A stretch of DNA of 64,000 bases from Terriglobales bacterium (GTDB lineage Bacteria > Acidobacteriota > Terriglobia > Terriglobales > Acidobacteriaceae). Below the pieces are notes generated by a model, which was given only the letters and a program-made list of their open reading frames with translations, made no database searches and was not told where the DNA came from. Positions 17,786 through 34,706 of the stretch are shown piece by piece; within the stretch, counting starts at the first letter, position 1; every line of letters begins with the position of its first letter. The position numbers and the translations under genes were made by a program. The stretch lies in assembly GCA_035651995.1 (NCBI GenBank), contig DASRER010000002.1, forward strand, positions 372,001-436,000, written 5' to 3'.

Positions 17786-17793
17786 TGCAGGAT

Positions 17794-17870
17794 CAGTTCT
17801 CGGTTCTCAGTTCTCGGTTTGTCCGTCTCAATGTTCGCGACTGGGACCGAAAACGGAGAACTGAAAAACT
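17794..17870. repeat. Paired oligo-repeat hairpin (ttctcgg words)
   Basis: The left arm, 17794-17820, repeats cagttctcggttctcag. The right arm, 17846-17870, reads accgaaaacggagaactg and is its complement. The spacer is about 25 nt. The right arm reaches the aroQ stop codon (17869-17871). Confidence 0.7.
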
Positions 17871-18189: not shown

Positions 18190-18192
18190 AAG

Positions 18193-18311
18193 AGCAGCAG
18201 TCAGCACTCAGCAGTCAGCAGTCAGCACTCAGCCCCTGAGCGGTTCCAAGCGCCCACAGAAAGCGCGATGGCTCAGCCGGCTGAATGCCGCCTGCTGGCT
18301 GCTGAATGCTC
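18193..18311. repeat. Paired heptamer-repeat hairpin overlapping the trpA 3' end
   Basis: The left arm at 18193-18235 is a tandem of the 7-nt words cagcagt and cagcact. The right arm at 18279-18311 is its complement in register, with a few mismatches and wobbles. A stem of about 33 bp around a 43-nt loop is possible. The right arm lies wholly inside the last codons of trpA (stop at 18273-18275). Confidence 0.8.
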
Positions 18312-19067: not shown

Positions 19068-19807
19068 GGCGCGGCGGTCTTGCCCCGGAACATTTTGCGG
19101 CGCGCGTCGGGCCAGAATTCGTGTCCCAGGTTGGCGGCGGCGGCGCCCAGGAGTCCAAATCCGAACCGCGAGAAGGTAAGGCCCGCGCCCCGGCTCTGGT
19201 CGGGATAGTAGGCGTTCGAAAGCGCGCCGCTGAAAAGCGCGCCCCCGAGCAGCGAGTAGTTGGACTGCCGCTTGCCGTCGTCGGAGCGGGTGATCAGCAC
19301 GCGCGACAGCGCGTAGCCTGTCCTGCTGCCAAAGCTGCCGCCGGCGCGGCGGAAGTAGCGTGGATCCTGGCGCAGCAGCGTGGCGAGCATAAAGCGGCCG
19401 AAGAACACGGCGGAACTTTGGTCGGCCAGCGAGGCGCCGAAGCGTTTGCCGAAGCCCTCACCCCCCTGTCCGTACGGTTCGGGAGAGTTCCTTGCCTGTC
19501 CAATCCCCGCGTCAAGGCCTGCGACGGCCCAGTTCAGCGGGTTGTAAGCGTACCCGGAGAAGATGCGGAACTTGCCGGCGGCAGAAATCGGCGTGGCCGC
19601 GTCGGCGGTTTCGTAACTGCGGCCCGTCCCGAAGATGCGTTTGGGCTTCTTCTCTGCGGCGCTCGACGGAGCGCTGGGCGCCCCAGCCGGGGCAGGGTCC
19701 TGATCGCGAACCGGCAACTCCGCCTGAGCTGGCTGCCACAGCGTGCTCAGGCAAAACGCGAGCACGCAAGGTCCCAGCCGCGATGTAGATTTTCCGCCGA
19801 CGTTCAT
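19064..19807 (-). CDS. Exported protein of unknown function between trpB and trpA
   Basis: A 247-residue protein with an N-terminal signal peptide ([17 protein letters not shown]). The mature part has a Pro/Ala linker, then a Gly/aromatic-rich region ([40 protein letters not shown]). I know this pattern only as an uncharacterised acidobacterial family. It overlaps trpB by 4 nt and trpA by 4 nt (both ATGA), so it is translated as part of the operon even though it has no obvious role in tryptophan synthesis. The Gly/aromatic content would suit an outer-membrane or surface protein. Confidence 0.8.
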
Positions 19808-21027
19808 AGCTTCAGCTCCTCGCGCAGGATGCCCATGTCTTTGTCGCCGCGGCCGCTGATGTTGACGATTACCGTCTCGCTCTTCTTCATGCGCGCAGCG
19901 CGCTTAACGCATTCGGCCACTGCGTGCGCCGCCTCCAGCGCGGGAATAATGCCCTCGCTGCGCCCCAGAAGCGTGCAGGCTTCCAGCGCCTCGGCGTCGG
20001 AGGCGGCGGTGTACTCAGCGCGGCCCGACTCAGCCAAGTAGGCGTGCTCGGGACCGATGGCGGGGTAGTCGAGGCCGGCGGAGACCGAGTGCGTCGGAGC
20101 GATCTGCCCGGCGTCGTCTTGCAAGACGTACGAATACGTTCCCTGCAGCACGCCGGGCGAGCCGCCTGGCTTTTTCGCGGTGCCCATGAGGGCCATGCGC
20201 GCGGCGTGCGCGCCGAGTTCGGGGCCGCGCCCGCCGGCTTCAACTCCGACCAGACGCACGCGCTTGTCCTTCAGGAAGCCGCTGAAGATGCCGATCGCGT
20301 TCGACCCGCCGCCTACGCAGGCGATCACCGCCGAAGGCAGTTTCCCCGCCTGCTTCATGATTTGCGCGCGCGCTTCGCGCCCGATGACGGTGTGGAAGTC
20401 GCGCACCATCGCCGGGTAAGGATGCGCGCCCAAAACGCTGCCGAGCAGATAGTGCGTGGTGCGCACGTTGGTGACCCAATCACGCATGGCTTCGTTGATG
20501 GCGTCTTTCAGCGTACGCGAGCCCGAGTTCACGCCGCGCACTTCGGCGCCGAGCAGCCGCATGCGAAACACGTTGAGTTCCTGGCGGCGCATGTCCTCCG
20601 TGCCCATGTAGACCACGCACTCCATGCCCATGAGCGCGCACACCGTGGCGGTGGCCACGCCGTGCTGGCCGGCGCCGGTTTCCGCGATGATGCGCCGCTT
20701 GCCCATGCGCCGCGCCAGCAGCGCCTGTCCGATGCAGTTGTTGATCTTGTGCGCGCCGGTGTGCAGCAGGTCTTCGCGCTTCAGGTAGATCCCGGCGCCG
20801 CCAAGTTTTTTCGTGAGACGCCGCGCAAAAAACAGCGGCGTGGGACGTCCGGCGTAGTTGCGCAGCAAGTCGGCGAATTCGCGCTGAAAGGCGCGTTCGC
20901 GCCGCGCCTTCGCGTAGGCCGCCTCCAGCTCCTCGAGCGCCGCCATCAGCGTTTCCGGAACGTAGCGGCCGCCGAACCGGCCAAAGCGTCCGGGCTGCGG
21001 CGGCGTTTGTTTGGCGGAGGCGGACAT
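19804..21027 (-). CDS. trpB: Tryptophan synthase beta chain
   Basis: PLP enzyme condensing indole with serine to give tryptophan. It has 407 residues (TrpB1 type). The PLP-lysine motif is [13 protein letters not shown], preceded by KREDL. The phosphate-binding glycine loop is GGGSNAIG, and [13 protein letters not shown] stands at the N-terminus. The C-terminus has NISGRGDKD. The following gene starts inside its stop codon. trpF precedes it by 15 nt. Confidence 0.96.
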
Positions 21028-21042
21028 AGAGGCTGCTTGGCG

Positions 21043-21753
21043 TTACTTCTTGCCTTTCGCGGTTCGCGCCGCCTTTTCCTTTTCCTTGGCCCTGGCCTCG
21101 CGCGCGGCCTTGATGAAGGCGCGCAGCTTGTCGTGGTCCTTTTTCCCCGGCGTTTTCTCGGTGCCGCTCACCACGTCGACGCCCCACGGACTCAGGATGC
21201 TGATCGCGGTTGCAACATTCTCGGCCGTAAGGCCGCCCGCCACGATGATGGGAAACGACCGCCCGAAGACCTTCACCTTGTGCTGCCAGCGCGTCCAGTC
21301 GAACGTTTCGCCGGTGCCGCCGCGCACCTGGCCAATGATGGAGTCGAGCAGGAGCGCGTCAATCTGCAGGCGCTCGCGCGTTGTCGGATGGCCGCTGGCC
21401 TCTTCCCACTCTTCGCCGCTGGCCGGGACCATGAGGATAACCCGGCGTCCCGGCGCTGATTTGCGCCACTCGGCCAGCTCGGGAACGATGGCGCGGTCAC
21501 CCTCGCCGCTGAGCTGGATGCCGGTCAGGCCGGCCTGCTCGGCGATCTCGCGGATGCGCCCCGGCGATTCGTTCACAAACACGCCGATCTTCTCCACCTC
21601 AGGCGGCAATCCGGCAACGACCTTGCGCGCCGCCTCGGGCTCGATGCGCCGCGGGCTGGGCGCGAAGATGAATCCCAGCGCGTCAGCGCCGGCGCTGGCG
21701 CCGGCCAGCGCGTCTTCCAGGTTCGTGTTGCCGCAAATCTTGATCCAGGGCAT
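21043..21753 (-). CDS. trpF: Phosphoribosylanthranilate isomerase
   Basis: Amadori rearrangement of phosphoribosylanthranilate in tryptophan synthesis. It has 236 residues. It begins MPWIKICGNTNLEDAL with the catalytic cysteine in KICG; GIQLSGEGD and the glycine-rich IIVAGGLTAENV are phosphate-binding parts, and GVDVVSGTEKTPGKKD carries the catalytic aspartate region. The tail is Lys/Ala-rich. The ATG at 21753 is the family start; codons upstream to 21930 translate the repeat element and should be ignored. Confidence 0.94.
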   Translation of the reverse strand: MPWIKICGNTNLEDALAGASAGADALGFIFAPSPRRIEPEAARKVVAGLPPEVEKIGVFVNESPGRIREIAEQAGLTGIQLSGEGDRAIVPELAEWRKSAPGRRVILMVPASGEEWEEASGHPTTRERLQIDALLLDSIIGQVRGGTGETFDWTRWQHKVKVFGRSFPIIVAGGLTAENVATAISILSPWGVDVVSGTEKTPGKKDHDKLRAFIKAAREARAKEKEKAARTAKGKK

Positions 21754-21760
21754 AAGGGCG

Positions 21761-21884
21761 GTTTCTAGTTTCTGGTTTCCGGTTTCTGCGTTTTCGTCTT
21801 CGTCTTCTCGTGCTCCTTGCTTGCTGGTTGGAGCTGGCGCATTGATCCATGCGCGAAACACTGGAAACGAGAAACTAGAAACTG
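21761..21884. repeat. Paired oligo-repeat hairpin (tttctagtttctgg words)
   Basis: The left arm at 21761-21790 iterates gtttctagtttctgg. The right arm at 21855-21884 (gaaactagaaactg) is the complement in register over about 28 nt. The spacer is about 64 nt. The right arm covers the trpC stop codon (21875-21877) and its last codons. The element fills the gap between trpC and trpF. Confidence 0.8.
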
Positions 21885-22684
21885 GGAACGTTGGTTCTTG
21901 AAGGCGACAGCAGCTCCCGCAGCGCCTCACCGGGATGCTGCGCCGCCATCAACGACTCGCCGACCAAAAACGCGTCATACCCGGCTTCCCGCAGCGCGGC
22001 AATATCACTCGCATGGCCGAGGCCGCTCTCGGCGACGCGCACCGCATCACGCGGAATCTGCGGCGCCAGCCGCAGCGCCGTGTTCAGGTCCACGCGAAAC
22101 GTGCGCAGGTCGCGATTGTTGACGCCGATCAGATCACATCCCGCGGCGACGGCGCGCTCCAGTTCACGTTCGTCGTGCACCTCGCAGAGGACATCCAGAC
22201 TCAGGCCGCGGGCAGCATCAGCCAGGCGGCGCATGGCGGCATCGGCGAGCCCTGCGGCGATGAGCAACACAGCATCCGCATGGTGCGCGCGCGCTTCGAG
22301 CAACTGGAATTCGTCAACCATGAAGTCCTTGCGCAGGCACGGCAGATGAGTCGCCTGGGAAGCGGCCCTCAGGTTCTGCAGCGAGCCCTGGAAGAATTCC
22401 TCGTCGGTGAGCACGCTGAGGGCGGCGGCGCCGGCCTGCTCCAGTTCGCGTGCCAGCGCTGCCGGATCGAGCTCCCGCCGGATGAGCCCGCGCGAGGGCG
22501 ACGCCTTCTTGAGCTCGGCGATCACCGCCGGCCCGCGCTCCGAGCGGTCTTTCAGCGTTCGCCGAAAGCCGCGCGGGACGTGGCTTTCCGCCTGGCGCTC
22601 GAGCGCGCGCACGTCGGCACGGCCGCGGTCTCGCTCGACGTGCCGCCGCGTTGCGGCGATGATTTCTTGCAGCCCGATTGGCAT
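21875..22684 (-). CDS. trpC: Indole-3-glycerol phosphate synthase
   Basis: Ring closure of carboxyphenylaminodeoxyribulose phosphate in tryptophan synthesis. It has 269 residues. Seen: the AELKKASPSRG substrate loop, the catalytic-lysine region CLRKDFMVDEFQLLEARAHH, GVNNRDLRTFRVDL and ESGLGHASDIAALREAGYDA. The ATG at 22684 (MPIGLQEIIAATRRHVERD) is chosen because the frame upstream is not IGPS-like and the promoter lies at 22702-22707. The last few residues come from a repeat arm. It is first in the trp run. Confidence 0.95.
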   Translation of the reverse strand: MPIGLQEIIAATRRHVERDRGRADVRALERQAESHVPRGFRRTLKDRSERGPAVIAELKKASPSRGLIRRELDPAALARELEQAGAAALSVLTDEEFFQGSLQNLRAASQATHLPCLRKDFMVDEFQLLEARAHHADAVLLIAAGLADAAMRRLADAARGLSLDVLCEVHDERELERAVAAGCDLIGVNNRDLRTFRVDLNTALRLAPQIPRDAVRVAESGLGHASDIAALREAGYDAFLVGESLMAAQHPGEALRELLSPSRTNVPSF

Positions 22685-22701
22685 GCGCGCGTGGATCTTT
22701 G

Positions 22702-22730
22702 AGTATACCTGCCCCGCCGCGAGTTGACAG
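22702..22730 (-). promoter_or_regulatory. Putative promoter of the trpC-to-tyrA operon
   Basis: On the minus strand a TATACT -10 (22707 to 22702) lies 17 nt from CTGTCA (22730 to 22725), a 4-of-6 match to the -35. The leader would be only about 11 nt before trpC, leaving no room for a leader peptide or attenuator. The -35 overlaps that of the divergent cupin promoter. Confidence 0.5.
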
Positions 22731-22752
22731 CGCGTCTCCCGCGGAGTAGCTT
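22724..22752 (+). promoter_or_regulatory. Putative promoter of the exported cupin gene
   Basis: A perfect TTGACA (22724-22729), a spacer of exactly 17 nt, then TAGCTT (22747-22752). It overlaps the -35 region of the divergent trpC promoter, so the two may compete for RNA polymerase. Confidence 0.5.
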
Positions 22753-22801
22753 CCCTCCGCCTTTCAAGCCATTCCAAACTGAATTCTCAAGGAGGGAACT
22801 T

Positions 22802-23200
22802 ATGAGAGCACGAGTCGTGGTCTGCCTCGTCATGGCGGCCATTCTCTTGACCGCAGCCGCCGTGGCACAGGACGCCGTGAAGGCTGATCCCAAGCACTAC
22901 ACGGTGGTCAGCGAGAACGCGAAGGTCAGGATCCTGAAGATCCACTACGGACCGCACGAAAAGTCGGTCATGCACAGCCATCCCGACAGTGTGGTCATTC
23001 CGCTCAGCGACCTGAACGCCAAGTTCACCATGCCGGACGGCAAGACCGAGACGCGGGCGATGAAGCACGGCGAGGCGCAATTTACGCCCGCGGTGACCCA
23101 CCTGCCCGAGGACACCTCGGACAAGCCGTTCGAGGCCATCCTGGTCGAGTTAAAGGGCAGCTCTGCCAGGGCAGCCGCCGCCGCGCCGGCCAAGAAGTAG
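22802..23200 (+). CDS. Exported small cupin-domain protein
   Basis: A 132-residue protein with a signal peptide (VVVCLVMAAILLTAAAVAQ). The mature part is a single cupin barrel: KVRILKIHYGPHEKSVMHSH with the metal-ligand histidines, then an acidic strand and FEAILVELKG. An Ala-rich tail follows. Its reaction is unknown. A ribosome site (aaggaggga) sits 5 nt before the ATG at 22802, which settles the start against the longer frame from 22724. It is divergent from trpC. Confidence 0.8.
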   Translation: MRARVVVCLVMAAILLTAAAVAQDAVKADPKHYTVVSENAKVRILKIHYGPHEKSVMHSHPDSVVIPLSDLNAKFTMPDGKTETRAMKHGEAQFTPAVTHLPEDTSDKPFEAILVELKGSSARAAAAAPAKK

Positions 23201-23223
23201 TCTCGGGTTCGTCTGCGCCAGAC

Positions 23224-23254
23224 GCCCGCCCGCGGAACAACGCGCGTGGCGGGC
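23224..23254 (+). terminator. Hairpin after the cupin gene
   Basis: The stem is gcccgcc (23224-23230) with ggcgggc (23248-23254) around a 17-nt loop, followed by a weak pyrimidine tract (acttccttt). It lies 23 nt after the cupin stop. Confidence 0.5.
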
Positions 23255-23276
23255 ACTTCCTTTCAGCAACCCGACC

Positions 23277-23304
23277 TTGTCAGTCAAGCCCGCCCATGTA
23301 CACT
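23277..23304 (+). promoter_or_regulatory. Putative promoter overlapping the annotated 5' end of the second cupin
   Basis: TTGTCA (23277-23282) and TACACT (23299-23304) are separated by 16 nt. The -10 lies over the first in-frame ATG (23296). Transcription should start near 23311, where a GTG stands. Confidence 0.45.
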
Positions 23305-23310
23305 GCCGGC

Positions 23311-23673
23311 GTGCCAACCCTGATCGCATCGCCAACGCGCATCACCGCCGCCGGCAACAAGCCCAAGCTGATTGATGAATACGTCGGTCGCGTAAATTCA
23401 CAGTCGCAGCAGGTCAGCGTGGCGCACATGCGCAGTCCGGGCGGATGGCGGGAACCGGGGCAGCGTCCCGAGTTCGATGAGTACACGCTGGTGCTGCGCG
23501 GCCTCCTGCGCGTGGAGCACGACGGCGGTTACCTCGACATCCGCGCGGGACAAGCCGTGATCGCGCACAAAGGCGAATGGGTGCGCTACTCGACGCCGGA
23601 AGCCGAAGGCGCGGAGTACGTGGCCATCTGCCTGCCCGCGTTCTCGATGCAAACGGTGCACCGCGACCACTAG
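23311..23673 (+). CDS. Cupin-domain protein
   Basis: A 120-residue cytoplasmic cupin. The barrel runs from SVAHMRSPGGWREPGQRPEF, through YTLVLRGLLRVEHDGG, to VIAHKGEWVRYSTPE. The set of metal ligands is reduced compared with classical cupins (E and H only partly present). The ATG at 23296 is in frame but is covered by the promoter -10, so the GTG at 23311 at the expected transcription start is preferred and would be leaderless. No substrate can be assigned. Confidence 0.7.
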   Translation: MPTLIASPTRITAAGNKPKLIDEYVGRVNSQSQQVSVAHMRSPGGWREPGQRPEFDEYTLVLRGLLRVEHDGGYLDIRAGQAVIAHKGEWVRYSTPEAEGAEYVAICLPAFSMQTVHRDH

Positions 23674-23752
23674 CGGGCGAATCGGCCTTCTGCGCAATTC
23701 CCGTCGCGAACGCATGTAGAATACCTCCCGCTCCCGACCGGAGGAAACCCGC

Positions 23753-24571
23753 ATGCGCCTCGCGCTCGTTCTCGCGTTGATGCTCTCCACAACCGGATGC
23801 GGATGGATCAAAGGCTTCTTTGAGCAACAGGCCGAAAAAGCCAAGGCCAAAGCTACCGAAGCCGCCAAGAACGCGCTCGCCGAGGCGCAGAAGCAGGCGC
23901 AGCAGCAAGGGCAGGCGAACCCGAATGTCGAACGGAAAGAAGCGCCGACACCCGAGGTGCGCGGCGCCGCGCCGCGCGGCATCACCACCGGGCAGAGCGC
24001 CGACATCGTTCTCACCGGCGCATTCGGCGACGTGAAGGACGTGACGGCGGGCGAGATATGCCACGTGGAGCAGTGGAAGGCGGTGTCGGCGACCGAGATC
24101 CACCTGACGGTGAACGCCGACGACCGCGTGGGCGATTGTCCGATCACGCTGAACACCGGCGGCGGCCGCGGCGCCAGCGTTTACCTGGAAGTGCAGGCCA
24201 GCGCCGCCGCCAAGGCGCAGCGCGAGCGGGAGCAACAGCAGGAAGCCCAGGAACAACAGGCCAGGGCGGAAAAGGACGTCCAGCAGCGGCTGGAGATGGC
24301 GGGCACGAAGTGGTCTGTGAAACTGCCTTCCGGCAAGACCGATGAGTGGACGCGCTACGAAACGCTGCCCGGCGGGATCACGCGGTTCAAGTCAAGGAAC
24401 GGCGTGAATTTCATGATCGTCGCCAATCCCGATGGCACCGTGGCGGCGCAGAGCGAAGACGGCAGCTGCCTGTTCAGCGGCAACGTGGAGAACGGCCGCG
24501 TGACCGGGCAGTCGCTCATGCCCAGGTGCTCGCTGGGCTCGGGCGCGTTCACTGCCACAGTCAGCAAGTAG
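23753..24571 (+). CDS. Lipoprotein of unknown function with coiled-coil region
   Basis: A 272-residue protein. The N-terminus is a lipoprotein signal with lipobox LSTTGC (Cys 16). Next is a charged Ala/Lys/Gln helical region (EKAKAKATEAAKNALAEAQK), then a beta-domain (VTAGEICHVEQWKAVSATEI), a second Gln-rich coiled coil (about residues 150-185) and a C-terminal beta-domain ending GSGAFTATVSK. The ribosome site is ggaggaaa. A TAGAAT -10 lies about 30 nt upstream. It is expected to sit at the outer or inner membrane facing the periplasm. No family recognised. Confidence 0.75.
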   Translation: MRLALVLALMLSTTGCGWIKGFFEQQAEKAKAKATEAAKNALAEAQKQAQQQGQANPNVERKEAPTPEVRGAAPRGITTGQSADIVLTGAFGDVKDVTAGEICHVEQWKAVSATEIHLTVNADDRVGDCPITLNTGGGRGASVYLEVQASAAAKAQREREQQQEAQEQQARAEKDVQQRLEMAGTKWSVKLPSGKTDEWTRYETLPGGITRFKSRNGVNFMIVANPDGTVAAQSEDGSCLFSGNVENGRVTGQSLMPRCSLGSGAFTATVSK

Positions 24572-24681
24572 AACGCTAAGCCTTCCCTGCGCGACCTGCG
24601 GCGCCCGCGTTGCCGAGCCGCGCAATCAATGGTCTTCCGAGTTTCTCCCGGAGAAAGGCCCACCAGCTATTTTCAAAAAAA

Positions 24682-24768
24682 TGGTGCCGAAGAAGGGACT
24701 CGAACCCCCACGCCCTTGCGGGCACATGGACCTGAACCATGCGCGTCTGCCAATTCCGCCACTTCGGC
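24682..24768 (-). tRNA. tRNA-Leu (CAG)
   Basis: Read on the minus strand, the acceptor stem GCCGAAG pairs with CTTCGGC and a CCA end is encoded. The anticodon stem catgg/ccatg encloses the loop ttcaggt, giving anticodon CAG. The long variable arm (tgcccgcaagggcg) is class II and fits leucine. The T arm contains GGTTCGAGTCC. The length is 87 nt including CCA. A T7 run follows the 3' end directly and a small palindrome (tttctcc/ggagaaa) lies further down. Confidence 0.95.
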
Positions 24769-24963
24769 TTCGGTGTGCGGAGCGCAACCTCACGGTCACG
24801 CCGTCAGGAAGGAGACAACTTTCTTATTTTACAAGCCGCGGTGGTTCTGTCAAACCCGGCGGTCGCCACTCTGCATTCAGCCGTCGGCCTTCAGTCCGCA
24901 AGCGGGCGGAGGCGAAAGCGGGCCTCGTCTCCACCCGCGACCGAATCCGCGCACATCAAGCGA

Positions 24964-24994
24964 CTCCGGGAGACGCGAGAAGCGCCTCCCGGAG
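24964..24994. repeat. Perfect 9-bp hairpin downstream of the phosphoesterase gene
   Basis: The arms ctccgggag (24964-24972) and ctcccggag (24986-24994) enclose a 13-nt loop that can add three further pairs. It lies about 20 nt beyond the stop of the minus-strand phosphoesterase gene and may end its transcript, although no T run follows. Confidence 0.55.
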
Positions 24995-25012
24995 ATCAAC
25001 CAGCCAATTCAG

Positions 25013-26176
25013 CTACTTCACAGTTGTGTACACCGTGGCCTTGAATACAGATCCGGCCATTGTGTAAGCCTGCACGCTCACGCGGTGCGTGCCTGTGGAG
25101 AGTGGGAGGGACGTGTCGAGCCGGCCGCCGGAGACCTGGTATGTCTTGGCCCCGTCGATGTAGATCTGCAGGATGCGTACCCCTTCGGACGAAGTCGCGC
25201 CCGCCACAACTCGCACCGGCGAGGAAGAAGTTCCGTTGTTCGCCGGAGAGCAGATGGTGACGGTGTTGTTCACCGTGCTCAGCGTGCAGCCGGCGGTTGT
25301 GGGCGGTGGGGGCGTGCCTGTCGTGGTGAAGAACTCCGCCATCGAGCGCGCGCTGGCCGCGGCCCCCAGTTGCGGGTTGAGTCCCAGCGCCTCGAGAAAT
25401 GTGCGCAGCAGGTTCTGGTGCTGATAGAAGCTCGTGGAGCGATACCCGCGTTTGCCGTACTTCGGGCTCACCACAACCGTCGCAATGTGCCCGCCGCCGT
25501 GCGCCGTGTCGCTGCTGTACGACTCATCGAACGCGATCACCAGCAGCCCGTCCTTCTGAAATTGCGCATTGGCCAGCAATGGCGCGACCTGCGCCTTCAG
25601 CCATGCGTCGGCTGCGCTCAGCGATCCATCGTGCGCGTTGTGGAGCTGGTTGGGCACGACGAACGAGAAGTCGGGCAGGGTTCCGTTCGCCAGATCGGCG
25701 GCGAATTGCGTGAACGGCACGATGAATGGGCGCTGGTTGCTGCTGTTCACCACGTCGGAGAAATACGCGAACGGATTGTGGTGCTTGATGTAGGGATACT
25801 GGTCACCGCCGGTGTAGCCGGCATAGGGCAAGCTTTCGGCGTAGACCTTCCATGTCTTCCCCGCCAGCATCAGGTGGCGCACGATGTTGTCGCCGCTGAA
25901 CGTGCCGCCGTAGCCGTCGCTGTTGGTGACGATCTGGCCGGTGGTCATCATGAAGTAATTGCCGATCGAGGGATGCGTGTTGGCGTAGAACTGCGTCGCC
26001 AGTCCGCATTGGTTGGCGAGCGCATTCCCGTACGGCATGCTGCTCTTCCCGATCACGCTCGAGTAGCTGTGGTTTTCTTCCATCACCACGACCACGTGTC
26101 CCGCCGCCGGGACCGGAGCGCACACCGCCGAGAGTGAAAGCGAACTCAAAAACAGGGGGAGGAGGAACCTACGCAA
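25013..26176 (-). CDS. Secreted phosphoesterase (acid phosphatase/phospholipase C-like) with C-terminal Ig-like module
   Basis: A 387-residue protein. Residues 1-25 form a signal peptide. The catalytic part is of the phosphoesterase superfamily (AcpA/PLC): HVVVVMEENHSYSSVIG at the N-terminus, NTHPSIGNYFMMTTG with the nucleophile region, HHNPFAYF, and IAFDESYSSDTAHGGGHIAT with the metal-ligand Asp/His. A Pro/Thr linker near residue 297 leads to a module of about 80 residues, also found at the end of the neighbouring GH71/GH99-like protein. The substrate (phosphate monoester or phospholipid) is not decidable. Confidence 0.85.
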   Translation of the reverse strand: MRRFLLPLFLSSLSLSAVCAPVPAAGHVVVVMEENHSYSSVIGKSSMPYGNALANQCGLATQFYANTHPSIGNYFMMTTGQIVTNSDGYGGTFSGDNIVRHLMLAGKTWKVYAESLPYAGYTGGDQYPYIKHHNPFAYFSDVVNSSNQRPFIVPFTQFAADLANGTLPDFSFVVPNQLHNAHDGSLSAADAWLKAQVAPLLANAQFQKDGLLVIAFDESYSSDTAHGGGHIATVVVSPKYGKRGYRSTSFYQHQNLLRTFLEALGLNPQLGAAASARSMAEFFTTTGTPPPPTTAGCTLSTVNNTVTICSPANNGTSSSPVRVVAGATSSEGVRILQIYIDGAKTYQVSGGRLDTSLPLSTGTHRVSVQAYTMAGSVFKATVYTTVK

Positions 26177-26346
26177 ATGCTCACCTCGCTCGAGGAGTTG
26201 CCCCGGAGGGGAGCAGCGAGGTTACAGGCCGCCGGCGGCGGTGAACATCGGCGGTTGACCACAACCGGCGCGCGATTACGAACCTACGGCCACCGGATAC
26301 CGGCCCGAGGCGAGTTAAGGCCTTCCCCCGGACCGGGCCCGGCGAT

Positions 26347-28674
26347 TCACCGCACCGTAAGCAGAACGGTCGTCTTGAACACCGCGCCGGTCGAGTCCCA
26401 GGCCTGCACCACCACCCGGTGCGAGCCCTTGCTCATCGTGACGGGCGTGTCGAGACTGGCGGCTTTCAGGGTGTAGACGCTCGCGTTGTCGAGATAAATG
26501 CGGATCGTGGTGATGGGATTCGCCGAGCAGGCGGTGGCGGCCACGCGGACCGGCGAGGTCACCGTCGCGCCCGAGAGCGGCGTGGCCACGCTGACGCCCG
26601 ATGCGGTCACGACTTTGGTCGCCGAAGACGACCCGCCCGCGTTGTCTGTGACCGTGGCCTTCACTGTGTATTTGCCGGCGCCGCTGTAGGTGTGGCTGAC
26701 CGCGGTGCCGCTCACAATTACGCCGTCGCCGAAGTCGATTTTCGATGCGACGATCTGCCCGTCACGATCGAGCGATGCGGCGGTCGAAGCCACCACCGGA
26801 AGTGGCGCGGGCCCCGATGCGGGCGTCACGCTTAGCGCTGCGGCCGGCGGCTGGTTGGGCGCGATCACCGAAACCGACGCGGTCGCCGTCGCGGTTGCGC
26901 CGAAGTTGTCCACCACCGTTGCCTTCACCGTGTAAACACCGGGAACGGCGTACGTGTGTGCCGCGACCGGGCCGGCGGTGACTGTGCCATCGCCAAACTC
27001 GATGCTCGAAGACGCGATGCTCCCATCAGGATCGGCCGACGACGCCGTCGAGGCGGTCACCATTAGCGGCGAAAGGCCGGTCAACGGTGTGAGCGCCAGA
27101 GCGGCGACCGGAGGCTGGTTGATTGCACTCACTGCAGCGGTGGCGCTTGCCGTGGCGCCCAGATCATCGGTGACGGTCGCGCTCACCGTGTAGGCGCCAG
27201 GTTGCGTGTAGGTGTGCGTCGCCACCGGGCCGGGCAGCACCGTGCCGTCGCCAAAATCAATGCTCGATGAAGCGATGGCGCCGTCCGCATCGCTCGAGGT
27301 TGTCGTTGAGGCGGTCACGGCCAGCGGCGCCGATCCGGAAGCGGGCGTCACGGTCAGCGCCGCCAGAGGTGGCTGGTTAGGAACGCTGTAGCTCACGCCG
27401 CCGGACATTTTGTTCACGATGCTCGGCTTGCCCACAGCTTTCACATAGAGCGTGTAGCTGCCGGGCGCCAGCGCGAATGAGCTCAGCTCCAGCGACGCGT
27501 TGCCGGTGGCGACGTCGGCGAGCGGCATCAGGTTTTGGCCGTCGCGCGACACAAAGACGGTGTAGTGGTCGAGCGTGTTCTCGTTCCCAGTGATGGTCCA
27601 GCCGAGGCTCGTTCCGCTCAGCGAGGCCGAGATGGCGACGCAGTTGTCGACGCCGGTTTCAATTTCGCTGCCCTCTTCGTAGTCGTTCCAGGTGACGAGC
27701 TGGAACATGGGGAGCTGCCGCGAGGCGCTGTAGTACTTCCCTGCCTCGGCGATGCTGGCGAGCCAGGTCTGGCCGCAATTCTGGTTCATGATGCGCCTGG
27801 AACCCCATGCGGCCAATGTGTCATTGAACCCCTTGTAGGAGGCCCCAAAGGGCGTCTCGCCCGGATTCTTCAGCGCGGTGGCGTAGAAATTGTCGAGATA
27901 GCCGAGGCCGATGTCGTTCGGATTGCCAGTATTGAGGTTGACCCAGGCGAAACCACCGTCGCTTTGCGCTTTGGAGAAGGCGCCGGAGTTGCGGAAAATG
28001 AACATCGGGTTGCCGTTTACGCCTGCCCGCGCGCGGTTCCAGTCAATGGCGTACTTCTCCACGCCGAAAAAGAAGACCACCGGGCGTCCGTTGACGCGCA
28101 TGTACGCTGGCGAGCCTTCGAAATTCACCCAGGCGTAGTTGAGGTCGTCGATGAGCCGCTGCGTGACGTCGCAGCCGGCGGTGGCGGCACAGGCGTTCAG
28201 CGCGCCCACGTCTTCGGTGACGGCGAACTCGAAGGCGCCGCCGCGGGTCTCGGCCTCGCGCATCACCAGGAATGTGGTGGCATTGGGGCGCGTGTTGTTC
28301 GGCCCGTACCAGTCGATGATCGCGCCCGCCAGGCCGCGGCTCATCATGTCGTCCACCTGCCGCCGCACCTGCACGGCATCGTCGGAGCGATAGCCGACGT
28401 TCATGTGGTTCGTCCCGCCGAACCACGGCATGAAGTGGGCGTAGATCTTCGTCGTCGCTCCCAGGTACAGCAGCGACGACGTGGGCGCCTTGCTTACGTT
28501 GGCGGCCGCGATGTTGCCGTTGGTTTGCGCTACGAAAGAAGAAGCGGCGCTGGTGTTGTTGCCGGTTTCGGCGGCCAGGGTCGTCGTCGGATGGAAGTCC
28601 AGGTTGGCGGCGAACGCCACGCTTCCGGCGAAAACAATCGTTGTCGCAAGGGTGAATGCAGTGATCGCGCGCAC
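26347..28674 (-). CDS. Secreted GH71/GH99-like glycoside hydrolase with three PKD domains
   Basis: A 775-residue protein. Signal peptide 1-22. The catalytic TIM-barrel-like part covers about residues 25-345, with KIYAHFMPWFGG, GAIIDWYGP and the glutamate-bearing LVTWNDYEEGSEIE near the end; these resemble GH71/GH99-type enzymes acting on alpha-linked glycans. A beta-module follows, then three PKD domains (about 433-518, 519-606, 607-692; each with FGDG and HTY) and a C-terminal Ig-like module (693-775) shared with the phosphoesterase. The start is a GTG preceded by ggaggag. The paralogue lies directly upstream. Confidence 0.8.
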   Translation of the reverse strand: MRAITAFTLATTIVFAGSVAFAANLDFHPTTTLAAETGNNTSAASSFVAQTNGNIAAANVSKAPTSSLLYLGATTKIYAHFMPWFGGTNHMNVGYRSDDAVQVRRQVDDMMSRGLAGAIIDWYGPNNTRPNATTFLVMREAETRGGAFEFAVTEDVGALNACAATAGCDVTQRLIDDLNYAWVNFEGSPAYMRVNGRPVVFFFGVEKYAIDWNRARAGVNGNPMFIFRNSGAFSKAQSDGGFAWVNLNTGNPNDIGLGYLDNFYATALKNPGETPFGASYKGFNDTLAAWGSRRIMNQNCGQTWLASIAEAGKYYSASRQLPMFQLVTWNDYEEGSEIETGVDNCVAISASLSGTSLGWTITGNENTLDHYTVFVSRDGQNLMPLADVATGNASLELSSFALAPGSYTLYVKAVGKPSIVNKMSGGVSYSVPNQPPLAALTVTPASGSAPLAVTASTTTSSDADGAIASSSIDFGDGTVLPGPVATHTYTQPGAYTVSATVTDDLGATASATAAVSAINQPPVAALALTPLTGLSPLMVTASTASSADPDGSIASSSIEFGDGTVTAGPVAAHTYAVPGVYTVKATVVDNFGATATATASVSVIAPNQPPAAALSVTPASGPAPLPVVASTAASLDRDGQIVASKIDFGDGVIVSGTAVSHTYSGAGKYTVKATVTDNAGGSSSATKVVTASGVSVATPLSGATVTSPVRVAATACSANPITTIRIYLDNASVYTLKAASLDTPVTMSKGSHRVVVQAWDSTGAVFKTTVLLTVR

Positions 28675-28810
28675 CGATCTCCTCCGGGCGTTCTCGTGAA
28701 ACGGGGGAAACGCTCCGGCGTTACAAAATGTGGCGTGGATTCTAAGAACAGTGGAACGCCCTAGTACTCAGGCGAATGACGTAATCCCTTCAGGGAATTG
28801 CCTTAGTGAA

Positions 28811-28961
28811 AGCAGTCAGCAGTCAGCAGTCAGCAGTCAGCACTCAGCAGTCAGCACTCATCCGCAAACGGTTGATTGGTCCGAGCGGCCCGGGTGCTCA
28901 TGGGGCTACCGCGTGTTCGTTTGCTGAAGCGATGCCGTGCAAGGGCTGAGTGCTGACTGCC
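28811..28961. repeat. Paired heptamer-repeat hairpin (gtcagca words)
   Basis: The left arm, 28811-28862, has at least six consecutive 7-nt copies of gtcagca/ctcagca. The right arm, 28943-28961 (gggctgagtgctgactgcc), is the complement. The spacer is about 80 nt. The words are the same as at 18193-18311. The right arm ends 3 nt from the stop of the next minus-strand gene. It lies between the two GH paralogues. Confidence 0.8.
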
Positions 28962-28964
28962 GCT

Positions 28965-30875
28965 TCACTGCACCGTCAGCCTCACCGCCGTCGTGCGTTG
29001 CAACGAGCCCGCAGTCGCGGTCACGGTGATCGTGTACGTTCCCGGCGGCGTTGTGCTGGCGCTCACCGTGCCTCCGCCGGTGGTTTGCGTCGTCTGCATG
29101 GCGCCCCCGCATCCGGCAAGACAAAGCAGCGCGACCATAGCCAGCACGATCCAGAGCATGCGGCGGCGCCGGCGCTTTCCGCCTGCGAACACCAATCCGG
29201 CCAAGCCGAACCCAGGCGATGCGCTCAACCAGATCGCAAGTACCGGGTCGCGGCGCTCATGAAGAGGGTGATCGCGCAATTCGGAATGGGCGCCGGCGGA
29301 AGTCACGGCGGTGGTGATCACCAGCGCCGAGGTCGCGGCAACAGCTGCGGGCGTCACCGACGCGGGAGAGAACGAGCAGGCCGCCATCGGCGGAAGGTTC
29401 AAGCACGTGAGCGTGACCGCGCTGCTGAAGCCGCCCGATGGCGCCACGCTCACATTGACGCTGGCCGGCTGGCCGGACGCCACGACCACCGCCGCGGGCG
29501 AAGCAGCAACGCTCACATCAGGCGGCGGCTGAACCACAGGCGGAGGAGGCGGTGGTGGCGGCGGAGGCGGTGGCGGGGCCACGGTGTACGTCACCTGGCC
29601 TGACATCTGGTTCATCATCGTGGGGCGGCCAATCGCCTTCACGAAGAACGTGTACGTGCCCGGATCGAGCGCTAGCGTGCTCAGGTCCATCGAGCGCGCG
29701 CCGGCCGGCAGGTCGGGGAGCGGCATCAGATTCGTGCCGTCGGTGGAAATGAAAACGCCGAAGTGGTCAACGGTGCTGGGATCGCCGGTGAGCGTCCAGG
29801 TGAGCTGGCCATTGCTCACCGCGGCGGTGATGGACACGCAGTTGTCGATGCCGCTCTCGATCTCGGTTCCCTCTTCGTAGTCGTTCCAGGTGACCAGTTG
29901 CAGCGACTCCAGCGGCGAGCTCGCGTTGTAGTGGTTGCCGACTTCGGCGAACGTCGAAAGCCACACCTTGCCGCATTGCTGGCTCATGATGCGCGGCGGC
30001 GTGGGCGCCCACGACGCGAGCGAGTCGTTGAAGCCCTTGTAGGTGGAGCCGAAGGTCTTCAGCGCCGGCTGCTTGAGCGCAGCGTTGTAAAAGTTCGCCA
30101 GGTATCCCAGACCCATGTCGAGCTGATTGGAGCTGGGCGCGACCCAGGAGAATCCTCCGTTGGTCTGCGGCCGGGTGAACGCCCCCGAATTGCGAAAGAT
30201 GAACAGCGGGTTGCCGGGGACACCGCCGCGTATGACCGTCCAGTCAAGCGTGTAAGCCTCGAGCCCGAAGAAAAACACGACCGGCCGTCCGTCCATGCGC
30301 ATGTAGCTGGGCGAACTCTGGTAGGTGTTGAAGACGTAAGTCAGGTCACTGATCACCTTCTGATTGAGGTCGCAACCAATGGTGGCCGCGCAGGACCGCA
30401 GCGAACCGGCGTCTTCCATGATCGCCAGTTCGAAGTTCCCCCGCGCCTCGGCCTCGGCCTTCATGAGCAGCGACGTGCGGTCTTCGCGATTGCCCGGGCC
30501 GTACCAGTCGATGATCACGCCCTGGATGCCGCGGCTGATCATGTCGTCAACCTGGCGCTTCACCTGGGCAGCGTCGTCGGAGCGGTAGCCTACATTCATG
30601 TGGTTCGTGCCGCCGAACCAGGCCATGAAGTGGGCGTAGATGCGCGTCTGCGCGCCCGGATACAGCAGCGAGCCGAGGGGCGCCTTGCTGATGTTGCCGG
30701 CGCCGGCATTGCCGTTGGTCTGCGCCACAAAGACGTCGGCGGCGCTGGTGTTGTTGCCGGTCTCCGCCGCAAGCGTCGTGGTGGGCGTGATGGCCAGGTT
30801 GGCGGCGCGGGCTGTCCCGCTCAGCCATGTGACGACCAGCAGCGCGACGGCAAAGCGCGCAACGGCACGGCGCAC
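28965..30875 (-). CDS. Secreted GH71/GH99-like paralogue with polyproline linker
   Basis: A 636-residue paralogue of the neighbouring enzyme; TTTLAAETGNNTSAA, NHMNVGYRSDD and LVTWNDYEEGTEIESG are nearly the same in both. A run of about 13 prolines (near residue 435) replaces the PKD array. It is followed by an Ig-like region, a basic patch RRRRR, a hydrophobic segment ending in a lipobox-like LAGC, and a final Ig-like strand set. The GTG at 30875 with ggaggag upstream was chosen over the longer frame. It probably works on the same type of glycan but is anchored differently. Confidence 0.8.
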   Translation of the reverse strand: MRRAVARFAVALLVVTWLSGTARAANLAITPTTTLAAETGNNTSAADVFVAQTNGNAGAGNISKAPLGSLLYPGAQTRIYAHFMAWFGGTNHMNVGYRSDDAAQVKRQVDDMISRGIQGVIIDWYGPGNREDRTSLLMKAEAEARGNFELAIMEDAGSLRSCAATIGCDLNQKVISDLTYVFNTYQSSPSYMRMDGRPVVFFFGLEAYTLDWTVIRGGVPGNPLFIFRNSGAFTRPQTNGGFSWVAPSSNQLDMGLGYLANFYNAALKQPALKTFGSTYKGFNDSLASWAPTPPRIMSQQCGKVWLSTFAEVGNHYNASSPLESLQLVTWNDYEEGTEIESGIDNCVSITAAVSNGQLTWTLTGDPSTVDHFGVFISTDGTNLMPLPDLPAGARSMDLSTLALDPGTYTFFVKAIGRPTMMNQMSGQVTYTVAPPPPPPPPPPPPPVVQPPPDVSVAASPAAVVVASGQPASVNVSVAPSGGFSSAVTLTCLNLPPMAACSFSPASVTPAAVAATSALVITTAVTSAGAHSELRDHPLHERRDPVLAIWLSASPGFGLAGLVFAGGKRRRRRMLWIVLAMVALLCLAGCGGAMQTTQTTGGGTVSASTTPPGTYTITVTATAGSLQRTTAVRLTVQ

Positions 30876-30911
30876 GTCTCCTCCAGCGTCTTGGGGGAAA
30901 CGCGTGTGGGG

Positions 30912-30946
30912 GCCGGCGCAAAACACCTGCCGGCGCTGCTTTTTTT
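30912..30946 (+). terminator. Terminator-like hairpin with T7 upstream of the GH paralogue
   Basis: gccggc (30912-30917) pairs with gccggc (30929-30934) around an 11-nt loop, followed a few bases later by T7 (30940-30946). It is oriented to stop plus-strand transcription although no plus-strand gene precedes it; it could limit antisense transcription of the GH gene. The remaining gap to 31213 has only the promoter below. Confidence 0.4.
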
Positions 30947-31161
30947 AGTGGCGCGATTGCCCCGAGTTTAGGGCGAGAGGGTTAAGTGTGGATTAAGCAA
31001 GAAGTTCTAGGCCGCCGGGCGATTTTGCCTTAGTACGGCACACGCGGTCCCACCCTGGGTTGAGGCCGCAAAGCGCTGAACAGAAACCGTTTCGGCCGCA
31101 CAACGTTCTCAAGCGAATACGCGTCGAATGCGTTGTTAGCCTTTGTCCCCTCGATCTGCAC

Positions 31162-31189
31162 TTGACCCGGCCCCGCGGTAGGCTTTAGA
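31162..31189 (+). promoter_or_regulatory. Putative promoter of the DHp-like gene
   Basis: TTGACC (31162-31167), a 16-nt spacer and TTTAGA (31184-31189). The ATG follows 24 nt later, with a caggag ribosome site. Confidence 0.45.
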
Positions 31190-31213
31190 GAAGCTTGGCA
31201 GGAGCTCGAGCGA

Positions 31214-31453
31214 ATGGCTCAACCAGGAATGGAACCGGCCTCCAAGATCGCCCCGGAGTTGAACACCAAACTCCGTTCACTCGCCCACGACCTGAGCAAC
31301 TCGCTGGAAACCATCATGCAGGCCTCTTACCTGCTTGGCCAGGCGCAGCTCGACGACAACGCGCGCAAGTGGGCTTCCCTGATCGACAATGCCGTGCGCG
31401 ACGCCGCCAAGATCAACCGCGAGATTCGCGACATATTGAGAAGTCAGAGCTGA
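31214..31453 (+). CDS. Small protein resembling a stand-alone histidine-kinase DHp domain
   Basis: A 79-residue helical protein. LAHDLSNSLETIMQASYLL looks like the H-box helix of a HisKA/DHp domain (HDLSN in place of HExxN), and the second helix KWASLIDNAVRDAAKINREI resembles the return helix of the dimer. There is no ATPase domain, receiver domain or membrane segment. It could be a phosphotransfer or dimerisation partner, or simply a decayed kinase fragment. Upstream caggag supports the ATG at 31214. Confidence 0.6.
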   Translation: MAQPGMEPASKIAPELNTKLRSLAHDLSNSLETIMQASYLLGQAQLDDNARKWASLIDNAVRDAAKINREIRDILRSQS

Positions 31454-31458
31454 CTGTC

Positions 31459-31559
31459 ATTGCCCAATTGCGCAATTGCCGAACTGCCGAAGTGAAAACC
31501 AACGCAGCGCGGCGAATTTGCAGTTCGGCGATTCCGCACTTTGGCAGTTCGGCAATTTT
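31459..31559. repeat. Paired oligo-repeat hairpin between convergent genes
   Basis: The left arm 31459-31494 contains caattgccgaactgccgaag. The right arm 31521-31559 contains its complement (ttggcagttcggcaatttt). A stem of about 22 bp with one or two mismatches can form. The left arm begins 5 nt after one stop codon and the right arm ends against the next stop (31560-31562). The words recur at 47523-47644. Confidence 0.8.
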
Positions 31560-32315
31560 CTACGCTGCCTCGTCCATCCTGGTACCCGCTGCATTCCGCA
31601 AAAAGTCCTGTGCAGCGCGGTATCCCGCCAGCGTGCCCACGTCCATGTAGATTTCCCCGGAATGTACGGCCTGCACGGCGTTGCCGGCGGCGATGTACGC
31701 GTTCAGCAGGTGGCCGAGGTATTCATCCTTGCGATGCCGCGCCTCCCATAGCAGCTTGAGCGCGTGAAAAGCGGCGCCGCTGGCGGTGACCGCGCCCCAG
31801 ACCCAGCAGGAATGCGCGTCCGCCTGCTTTACCTCGACGCGCCGCACGCTGCCGGTTTCCTCGGTCAGGACGGCGTCGAATACCTCCGGATTCGTGACCG
31901 GAAACAGCACTAGGTTGACGCCGGCGCCGCGCTCGATGGCGGGACGGTAGGCGTTCTCGGGAAACCAGATGGTGTCGGGCAGCCCGATGAGCACGTGATC
32001 GTGGCCGCGCGTGAACGGCTCGGCGCGGAAAAGCGCGTCACACAGCCCCTGCGGCTGGCGCTGCACCACGTAGAAAATGTCGGCCGCGTAATCGCGCCCG
32101 GCGAAGTAGCGCACAATGTCGCTCTTCTCGGCCGAGATCACCATGCAGATCTGCTCCGCCCCGGCGGCGATCATGCGCTCCACCAGGTACTCGGCCACCG
32201 CCTTGGGCCGCTCGCCGCCGCGCTCGCCGCGTGACCCGACGGGCAGCAATTCCTTGGAACAGCCCAGCGGCTGGATGCGCTGTCCGGCGCCGGCGGCCGG
32301 CACAATGCCGATCAC
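31560..32315 (-). CDS. Nucleotidyltransferase (sugar-1-phosphate NTP transferase type)
   Basis: A 251-residue protein of the RfbA/GlmU-N-terminal fold that activates a sugar phosphate with an NTP. Seen: IVPAAGAGQRIQPLGCSKEL, the nucleotide-binding glycine-rich start with the Lys of SKELLPV, QPQGLCDALFRAE, the metal-binding aspartate in IGLPDTIWF, and YMDVGTLAGYRAAQDFL at the C-terminus. It follows the glycosyltransferase-like gene by 37 nt, so both may contribute to a surface glycan. Which sugar is used is not visible. Confidence 0.88.
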   Translation of the reverse strand: MIGIVPAAGAGQRIQPLGCSKELLPVGSRGERGGERPKAVAEYLVERMIAAGAEQICMVISAEKSDIVRYFAGRDYAADIFYVVQRQPQGLCDALFRAEPFTRGHDHVLIGLPDTIWFPENAYRPAIERGAGVNLVLFPVTNPEVFDAVLTEETGSVRRVEVKQADAHSCWVWGAVTASGAAFHALKLLWEARHRKDEYLGHLLNAYIAAGNAVQAVHSGEIYMDVGTLAGYRAAQDFLRNAAGTRMDEAA

Positions 32316-32327
32316 GGGGCCTCCATT

Positions 32328-32416
32328 GAATATCGGGTCATCGGATCATGGATCATTGGGCCCCTTGGTTCACGGCAATCGGTTCAATGGCACGATGGCC
32401 CGACGACCCGATATTC
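32328..32416. repeat. Paired oligo-repeat hairpin reaching into the glycosyltransferase 3' end
   Basis: The left arm, 32328-32360, begins gaatatcgggtcatcgg. The right arm, 32381-32416, ends cgacccgatattc and is the complement. The spacer is about 20 nt. The stop codon (32353-32355) lies in the left arm, so the last 20 or so codons of the glycosyltransferase-like gene are repeat sequence. Confidence 0.75.
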
Positions 32417-33471
32417 ACTTCCTCGCAGTACGCCACCAACTGCTGGGCACGACGCGCTCCGGTGTGCTCATCGAGCGTGCGCTGGCGGGCGCGAGCGGCC
32501 ATGGGCGCCAGGTCCTCATCGTTGCGGCACAACACGCTCACCACGTCGGCGGTCCCTTCGGCAACCATGATTTCCTCCCCCGGTTCGAAAAAAGTCTCAA
32601 GTCCCGGAAACGCGTCGCTCACAATCGGCGTTCCGCAGGCCGCCGCTTCGAAGAAGCGCCCCGAGGGGCACCAGCCGCTGCGCGCCATCCCGCCCCGCGT
32701 GATGTTCAGCGTGATGCGCGAGGATGAATACAGCGCCGCGTGGTCCTGTGGCGCCACGTGCTCTATGCGGCGCACGTTCCCGGGCCACGCCCACTGCCGC
32801 GGATAGAGCGGGCCGGCGAGCAGGAATTGGAGCTGGGGCAGGCGCCGCGCCGGCTCGAGGAAAAGCGATTCGAGCTTCTGCTGCCGGTCGGCGGCGTATG
32901 TGCCCATGTAGCTGAGCTCGGAGTCGAACTCATGGCGCGGCGCTGTGCGCGCGTGCACGTCAGGATCGACGCAGCCGTAGAGCGGGCGCGCGTGCCGCGC
33001 TCCCCAGCGCGTCTCCAGTTCGCGCAGCACATCGCCGCCGGTGAACGACAGGTAGAGATCGAAACCGGGGATCTGCCCTGCGCGCAGATAGCCGGGGCCG
33101 TCGCCGTCGAGTTGCGACAGCGTGATGGGCGTGTCCAGGTCGTAGAAGACGCGGAGCGGACCTTCGACGGTCGCGGCGTCGTCCACGATGTGGGCGCCGC
33201 AGGGACAGTAGCTGGTGTGGATCACCACGTCGGAGTCGCGCACGTCGGCGAGAGCGCGATCGCGCACGTCGTCCCACTCCCCGTAGAGCTCCAGCCGGCA
33301 GTACTCGGGACGCCGCAGGTCGCGGCGCTGGGCGTAGAAGGGCGCGTCCTTTTCGTAAAAGACCGCCGTGTGCCCCATCGCGTGGAGCGCCCGAACGATG
33401 GCGCGGCAAGGGGTGGCGTGTCCATTGCCCCACGATGAGGAAAGAGTCAGGCCAAAAAACGTGATCTTCAC
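32353..33471 (-). CDS. Glycosyltransferase-like protein (CgeB/GT4-like)
   Basis: A 372-residue protein with two Rossmann-like halves. The N-terminus ([20 protein letters not shown]) and the C-terminal half ([20 protein letters not shown], then [20 protein letters not shown]) match glycosyltransferases of the CgeB/DUF3880 type. The GTG at 33471 gives the family start; an ATG at 33507 is possible but lacks a ribosome site. The C-terminal 20 residues derive from a repeat arm. The acceptor is unknown. It is divergent from trpG and precedes the nucleotidyltransferase gene. Confidence 0.82.
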
Positions 33472-33607
33472 CGCGACAGCGCTCCACGCGGAAAAATGCG
33501 TGCTCACCATGAGGATGAATCGGCGTACACGCGAGTTGTCCTCGGGAGCTGGGCCGCGGCGCGTGGCGCGTGACCGCTGCCGCAGGTACACTGATGGTTC
33601 GGTCGCT

Positions 33608-34183
33608 ATGGTCCTGGTTCTCGACAACTACGATTCCTTCACCTACAACCTCGTCCAGTACCTGGGCGAGTTGGGGCGCCAGGTCGAGGTGCGGCGCAAC
33701 GACCAGATCACCGCGGCCGAGGTGGAGCGCATGCGCCCGGAGCGGATCGTGATCTCACCCGGACCGTGCACACCGCACGAGGCGGGCATCAGCGTCGAGC
33801 TCATACGCCGCATGGCCGGCAAAGCGCCCATCCTGGGCGTCTGCCTGGGACACCAGGCGATCGGCGCGGCCTTCGGCGGCGAGATTGTTCGCGCGAAGCA
33901 CGTCATGCACGGCAAGACCAGCAGCGTGGAGCATGACGGCAAGACCGTGTTTCGCGGGCTTTCCAGCCCGATGACCGCCACGCGCTATCACTCCCTGATC
34001 GTCGAGGAAGAAACCCTGCCCAAAGAGCTCCAGGTCTCCGCCTGGACGACCGAGCCCGACGGCGCCCGCGTCATCATGGGCCTGCGCCACAGGAACTTTG
34101 CGGTCGAGGGCGTGCAGTTCCATCCCGAGAGCGTGCTCACCGAAGACGGCAAGGGCCTCATCCGCAATTTCCTGGGGCTCTAG
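33608..34183 (+). CDS. trpG: Anthranilate synthase component II (glutamine amidotransferase)
   Basis: Supplies ammonia from glutamine to TrpE (or PabB). It has 191 residues. The N-terminus is [20 protein letters not shown], the oxyanion loop is ISPGPCTP, the nucleophile cysteine is in [10 protein letters not shown], and the His-Glu pair is in [13 protein letters not shown]. The ATG at 33608 is chosen because TACACT (33587-33592) lies just upstream. It is convergent with trpE, unlike the usual trpEG arrangement, and may also serve p-aminobenzoate synthesis. Confidence 0.93.
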
Positions 34184-34333
34184 AACCGCTTGTTGACTGG
34201 CCGGCGCGCGGCTATCCTGCATCTGAATTTGTTAAGGACGGGCGGTGGAGCAGGTTTTTGCCGTTTCCCTGCCTGGCGTCGGCCGAAGCGCAACGGCAGA
34301 CAGGCCGCGCACGCTGCCCGCCCAATCTTCCAC

Positions 34334-34495
34334 GTGGAGCAGCAGCCACCACCTCCGAAGCAGAACGAGCGCCGCGCCGCAGCGGTGGACGCCTCGCAGG
34401 TCTGTCCCAATTGCTCCACCCGCCTTCAGGACAAGGGCTGCAAAATGAACTGTCCCAAGTGCGGCTTCTTCCTGAGCTGTTCGGATTTCTACTGA
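34334..34495 (+). CDS. Small zinc-ribbon protein
   Basis: About 53 residues from a GTG at 34334, ending with a four-cysteine ribbon: [20 protein letters not shown], then [10 protein letters not shown]. The frame is open from 34190, but the region before VEQQPPPP is Arg-rich and unlike a real N-terminus, so the start is uncertain. The CxxC...CxxC spacing (with an extra Cys) suits one zinc ion. It stands between the convergent trpG and trpE. The role is unknown; I remember similar short proteins in Acidobacteriota. Confidence 0.6.
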
Positions 34496-34498
34496 GAA

Positions 34499-34706
34499 AG
34501 TGGTTAGTGGCTCGTGGTTAAGGAAAGGCCTTTGTGGCCTCGTAAACCATTGCGACGAGATCAATGGACTTCTGCCATGCGATCAAATCTTGGCAGGACT
34601 TCACTGGTTTACTGCTCACGCCTCACCCCCACACTGCGAATCTCGGGCCCCTGGGGCTTTGCTAGCCGCTCACCACTGGCCACCAGCCCCTGATCCTAGC
34701 CACCAC
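34499..34706. repeat. Paired oligo-repeat element reaching the trpE stop codon
   Basis: The left arm, 34499-34523, is agtggttagtggctcgtgg. The right arm, 34662-34706, holds several complementary words (ccaccagcccc, caccactggcc, ctagccaccac). The spacer is about 138 nt. The right arm covers the trpE stop codon (34696-34698) and its last codons. The match is looser than at other loci. Confidence 0.55.

Follow-up and report, generated by a model that had tools for sequence, protein, structure and literature searches.

A phosphoesterase and an enzyme resembling a glycoside hydrolase (GH), encoded by neighbouring genes of a soil bacterium of the Terriglobales, carry what looks like the same short module at their C-terminal ends, and the question raised by this locus is whether the common tail marks a bond between the two neighbours or belongs to something more general. 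An earlier note on this DNA had described the resemblance and proposed two explanations for it, module shuffling or a shared anchoring target. In this study, we follow the module from the window (the whole stretch of 64,000 nucleotides that was analysed) to the rest of the genome, to other genomes of the same acidobacterial family and to the varied proteins that carry it. We find that the shared tail is real, but that there is no special link between the neighbours. The tail itself is an ordinary, already known domain, Big_7, and the window tails are most likely one copy each of a lineage subfamily of Big_7 that is strongest in the organism's own acidobacterial family. Among the open-access papers searched, we found none on this Ig-like end module in Acidobacteria or on NF058595, the model that describes a second type of tail encountered here.

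The gene row and its domains

Three genes, P0003, P0002 and P0001, follow one another in series on the minus strand (Table 1), and the open reading frames of P0001 and P0002 were confirmed at the positions listed there. The phosphoesterase domain of P0001 scores 104.1 bits over residues 46-261, well beyond the Pfam cut-off of 23 bits. The earlier note had omitted both the three PKD domains that lie N-terminal to the tail of P0002 and the third gene of the row, P0003, a GH-like paralogue that shares 60% identity with P0002 across 433 columns of their alignment and ends in a different tail. Judging only by their hydrophobic N-termini, P0001 and P0002 are probably exported.

Table 1. Positions in the window of the three genes and of the features discussed in the text
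Feature	Residues	Position	Strand	Basis and remarks
P0001, PF04185 phosphoesterase (acid phosphatase / phospholipase C type) with Big_7 tail		25013..26176	-
P0001, Ig-like (Big_7) tail	305-387	25016..25264	-	Pfam score, model, alignment
P0002, GH71-like enzyme (provisional) with three PKD domains and Big_7 tail		26347..28674	-
P0002, Ig-like (Big_7) tail	694-775	26350..26595	-	Alignment, Pfam score
P0002, three PKD domains	~433-690	26605..27378	-	PKD_4, 152 bits, three stretches; limits exact for the best stretch only (433-515), the remainder approximate
P0002, WNDYEE motif	329-334	27673..27690	-	D-x-x-E spacing as in the GH71 pair
P0003, paralogue adjoining P0002, with different tail		28965..30926	-
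P0003, lipo-invert putative C-terminal anchor, NF058595	532-653	28968..29333	-	83.8 bits

The assignment of P0002 and P0003 to GH71 is provisional, because the Pfam cut-off was missed and the (beta/alpha)8 barrel was poorly modelled. The match to PF03659 over the catalytic part of P0002 is a weak one of 25.4 bits, and that of P0003 reaches 25.3 bits, both under the cut-off of 34; the catalytic part of P0002 was modelled with low confidence in places. A Foldseek search with the whole P0002 model gave a list filled by Ig repeats, with multi-Ig proteins in all the matches listed, and two sequence searches against solved structures gave nothing for the catalytic parts, one of them with a single row at E 0.86. 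The second point of likeness to GH71 is the spacing of two acidic residues. Passages of PMC12394665 give Asp265 and Glu268 as the catalytic pair of AnGH71C, a D-x-x-E spacing, and in both P0002 and P0003 an Asp and a Glu likewise stand three residues apart, within the motif WNDYEE. This motif is invariant in all 12 of the aligned proteins, which comprise the window and matches from an unseeded search; its presence in 74/74 of the seeded loci described below is not independent evidence, because the scan that found those loci was itself seeded on TWNDYEE.

The row lies within a region (16769-36273, minus strand) that holds genes for DAHP synthase, trpA, a trpB-like gene, trpF and trpC, with anthranilate synthase I about 12 kb off. 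These tryptophan and aromatic genes are split by the three putatively exported enzymes, a glycosyltransferase, a nucleotidyl transferase and a tRNA-Leu (24682-24768), and the G+C content gave no sign of an island.

Similarity of the tails and membership in Big_7

That the last 80 or so residues of the two proteins align while their catalytic parts are unrelated, as the earlier note had it, is confirmed on both counts. Residues 306-387 of P0001 and 694-775 of P0002 align over 82 residues with 0 gaps and 35 identities (43%), and the similarity, which might have disappeared in a rigorous alignment, survives both this gapless comparison and a shuffle test, with a Smith-Waterman score of 179 against a maximum of 67 among 5000 shuffles. 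A whole-protein BLASTP comparison places its match in the tails (E 2.75e-17), and the similarity was reproduced with the isolated tails of P0001 and P0002. Outside the tails, no alignment between P0001 and P0002 was found (best E 0.24).

The description of the tail as Ig-like is likewise upheld, by the Pfam scores of both proteins and by the structural model of the P0001 tail. Against Big_7 (PF17957; gathering cut-off 24.1 bits), the P0001 tail scores 30.7 bits and the P0002 tail 26.7 bits in a scan of the tail region by itself and 31.0 bits in a six-frame search; Big_7 is absent from the P0002 list when the whole protein is scanned against Pfam. The subfamily to which the window tails belong differs from generic Big_7 in three respects, namely a consensus of its own (LDT, GxH, VQAWD, FK), a position at protein termini, and a pair of Cys residues at the start of the module in 88 of 161 copies. 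The Cys pair is found in the P0001 tail, whereas the P0002 tail is without it.

Predicted fold and ligand precedent

The tail of P0001 was modelled on an alignment of 127 module copies and that of P0002 only as part of the whole protein. The former is predicted as a confident Ig-like beta-sandwich (mean pLDDT 91.6, all beta strands), the fold expected of Big_7. Its top matches among solved structures, by Foldseek and a second aligner, are the B1 module of CelAly and the Fn3-like modules of CbhA. B1 (9kvu), itself a Big_7 domain, is the best or tied best fold match (Z 11.9) and is also found by a sequence-profile search (E 1.1e-5). The CbhA modules (3pdd, 3pe9 and 3pdg) share the beta-sandwich, with Z of 11.6-12.1 and the highest value for 3pdd, but differ from the tail in being only 17-20% identical to it and in belonging to other host enzymes.

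According to passages of PMC13235733, B1 binds alginate gel via Lys40, Arg49 and Arg75, and by analogy it may serve as a precedent for a binding role of a Big_7 module. This known binding site is not conserved in the window tails, since the aligned positions in P0001/P0002 are I/T, K/S and Q/Q, in a mapping that assumes a numbering offset of one, with which the distances between the three residues agree. On this mapping the tails do not qualify as alginate-binding Big_7 modules of the B1 kind. For FnIII-like domains of other enzymes, which are comparable, passages of PMC12394665 mention a possible role as spacers.

Copies of the module in the genome and in the family

A genome-wide profile search for the module, which the earlier note had recommended, found seven strong copies on six proteins, with profile scores of 113-135 bits. 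Two of these are the window tails, two are N-terminal, two lie in one calcineurin-like protein and the seventh forms the end of another calcineurin-like protein. In the gene of the calcineurin-like protein with two modules (L012:3034-5247), on contig C2 near 15.4 kb, an in-frame TAG splits the first module. The genome also encodes a protein of 2665 residues (L013:5529-13526) that contains internal repeats and four Big_7 domains of the generic kind.

The adjacency of P0001 and P0002 invites the explanation that a local duplication or gene conversion copied the tail from one gene into the other, and the phylogenetic tests leave it some room. An AU test on the careful tree of 56 tails, with the window tails forced together as sisters, found this arrangement less likely but did not reject it (p 0.119), and the quick tree of 161 rows was under-searched, because a tree in which the window tails were held together scored higher than the free tree, whose search had been short. 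The free trees nonetheless agree in placing the two tails in different parts, the quick tree as well as the careful one, whose 56 rows were hand-picked from the 161 and on which we rely. Sequence identity points the same way: with six of the seven copies compared, the P0001 tail shows 54% identity to a copy from contig C42 and 41% to the P0002 tail, and its identity to copies at other loci of the genome is 47-55% as against 41-43% to its neighbour. Moreover, of 20 GH71-like relatives fetched from other genera, 19 carry the Ig module. Because the C42 copy is closer to the P0001 tail and the two window tails stand apart in the tree, we regard copying between the neighbours as very unlikely rather than disproved, and the two enzymes most likely acquired their tails independently and not from each other.

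Beyond this genome, of 200 genomes sampled from the same family, 90 matched the module at 1e-6. When 297 genomes belonging to the phylum were searched with a profile, every match of at least 60 bits among those listed fell in that family, and the best match outside it, again among the matches listed, reached 56 bits. A module that is present in seven copies in one genome, where the window pair ranks among the least alike, and that is found in 90 of 200 genomes of the family argues against any private bond between the neighbours. P0001-like and GH71-like genes do lie within a few kb of each other in at least one other genome (G177, contig C381), in a stretch found among the matches listed (L167; L245 appears to be the same record); in that locus they are on opposite strands and the module is N-terminal on the phosphoesterase.

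Tail types of the GH71-like enzymes

The tail of P0003 belongs to NF058595, the lipo-invert putative C-terminal anchoring domain of NCBIfam, for which the cut-off is 37 bits. This is a separate module, not present on P0001 or P0002. Its layout in P0003 consists of Ig-like strands, a hydrophobic stretch, a run of Arg residues and a second hydrophobic stretch, with a conserved Cys at its end. The tail ends in a short strand-rich piece and its layout resembles an internal lipoprotein signal; only two matches to NF058595 over the cut-off occur in the organism's own genome.

Scanning named genomes with TWNDYEE and one further motif as seeds gave 80 GH71-like loci, whose record titles name Acidobacteria, Terriglobia, Candidatus Sulfotelmatobacter, Thermoanaerobaculia and similar; we take the genomes of all these loci to belong to Acidobacteriota. 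Tail types were surveyed in 84 uncut frames, including the window, each covering 300 or more residues of the catalytic domain, and were classified with our own profiles. Lipo-invert tails were found in 38 frames, the Ig module in 29 (a class that includes weak or non-terminal matches), no tail in 16 and another tail in 1, and the lipo-invert tail and the Ig module occur together in none of the 84. All 38 lipo-invert tails match NF058595, and when aligned every one of them (38/38) has the Cys that follows the second hydrophobic stretch.

On a careful tree of the catalytic domain, built from 74 of the 84 domains after removal of 10 divergent rows, tail type changes 11 times, compared with a mean of 30.9 for shuffled labels. 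The starred branches of this tree force at least five changes of the lipo-invert label, and a tree with all lipo-invert tails in one clade is rejected (p-AU 0.00041). The quick GH71-like tree has a supported group made up of L168 and the two GH71-like enzymes of the window, but the careful tree does not recover it. These changes of tail type are the firmest evidence for module exchange, which they support for the GH71-like family and not for P0001 and P0002. The idea of module shuffling thus stands for the family at large, where the module has varied hosts and GH71-like enzymes have changed tails, and is not supported for the two neighbours, given the closer match of the P0001 tail to the C42 copy. 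In genomes with two or more GH71-like copies, mixed tails occur in 13 of 17, with a shuffled mean of 12.7; because mixing is no commoner than chance, we do not claim a division of labour between paralogue tails.

Placement, hosts and possible role of the module

The placement of the module was read from 80 stretches chosen from the matches listed and five stretches of the organism's own genome, including the window, which together gave 95 frames with 166 modules; 18 frames cut by the fetched stretch were dropped, leaving 77. The module is C-terminal (the frame ending no more than 3 residues after the last module) in 53 of these, some of them short pieces beside a stop or frame break (e.g. L012 and L127), N-terminal (the first module no more than 110 residues from the start) in 22 and elsewhere in 2, figures that are no unbiased estimate because similarity to the P0001 tail and the GH71-like domain guided the sampling. 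The hosts include PF04185 and calcineurin-like phosphoesterases, GH71-like enzymes and beta-propellers. With the proteins that closely resemble the GH71-like enzymes or P0001 set aside, 56 hosts remain, of which 16 carry PF04185, 12 Metallophos, 5 SBBP propellers and 2 FG-GAP. Tandem arrays reach four copies, and four tandem modules are seen in P0001-type phosphoesterases of six stretches (L117, L119, L120, L121, L122 and L123). The four-module array looks old, since its modules group largely by array position.

Because the module occurs at both ends of proteins, and on proteins of varied kinds, it is most likely an exported accessory domain, for binding or as a spacer, and not a C-terminal sorting tag. 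The proposed shared anchoring target, in the form of a C-terminal signal for sorting or anchoring that takes both enzymes to one surface target, does accord with the 53 uncut frames in which the module lies within 3 residues of the stop, and with its replacement of the putative lipo-invert anchor on GH71-like paralogues, where none of the 84 frames has the two together. It is at odds, however, with the 22 frames in which the module is N-terminal, two of them from the organism's own genome, with a module that has no hydrophobic or membrane-like segment, and with NCBIfam, which lists no C-terminal signal for P0001 or P0002. Since the module is not confined to the C-terminus, we regard this role as improbable.

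On balance we favour the reading that this Big_7 subfamily is an end module of exported proteins, situated either at the C-terminal end or close to the N-terminus and independently acquired by P0001 and P0002, which would serve in holding off or weakly binding. P0001 and P0002 would be exported from the cytoplasm, the enzyme domain would act on a polymer or phosphoester outside it, and the Ig module, together with the PKD repeats in P0002, would keep the enzyme off a surface or matrix or bind it weakly. A lesser but real possibility is that the module has no ligand and acts passively, as a spacer or a stabiliser of exported enzymes. The presence of the CbhA Fn3-like modules among the closest fold matches, the tandem arrays and the restriction of nearly invariant positions to P, D and G are all consistent with such a role, but the module is terminal, not interdomain, in 75 of the 77 uncut frames, and at the end of a protein there is little to space; in addition, individual Y, H, F, K and W positions are retained in 53-89% of the 127 module copies.

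Conclusions

A broader view of the tails, which we put forward tentatively and consider rather unlikely as a whole, is that the Ig end module, the membrane-type lipo-invert tail and the lack of a tail are interchangeable localisation cassettes on one exported Terriglobia enzyme family, whose catalytic domain would have changed its tail often, with the tails leaving one of two adjacent paralogues, P0002 and P0003, free or matrix-bound and the other tethered to the envelope. Whatever the role of each tail, these two genes amount to a natural experiment, adjacent paralogues with 60% identity in their catalytic part of which one ends in an Ig tail and the other in a predicted anchor, and with this pair one could measure how each tail affects location on nearly the same enzyme.
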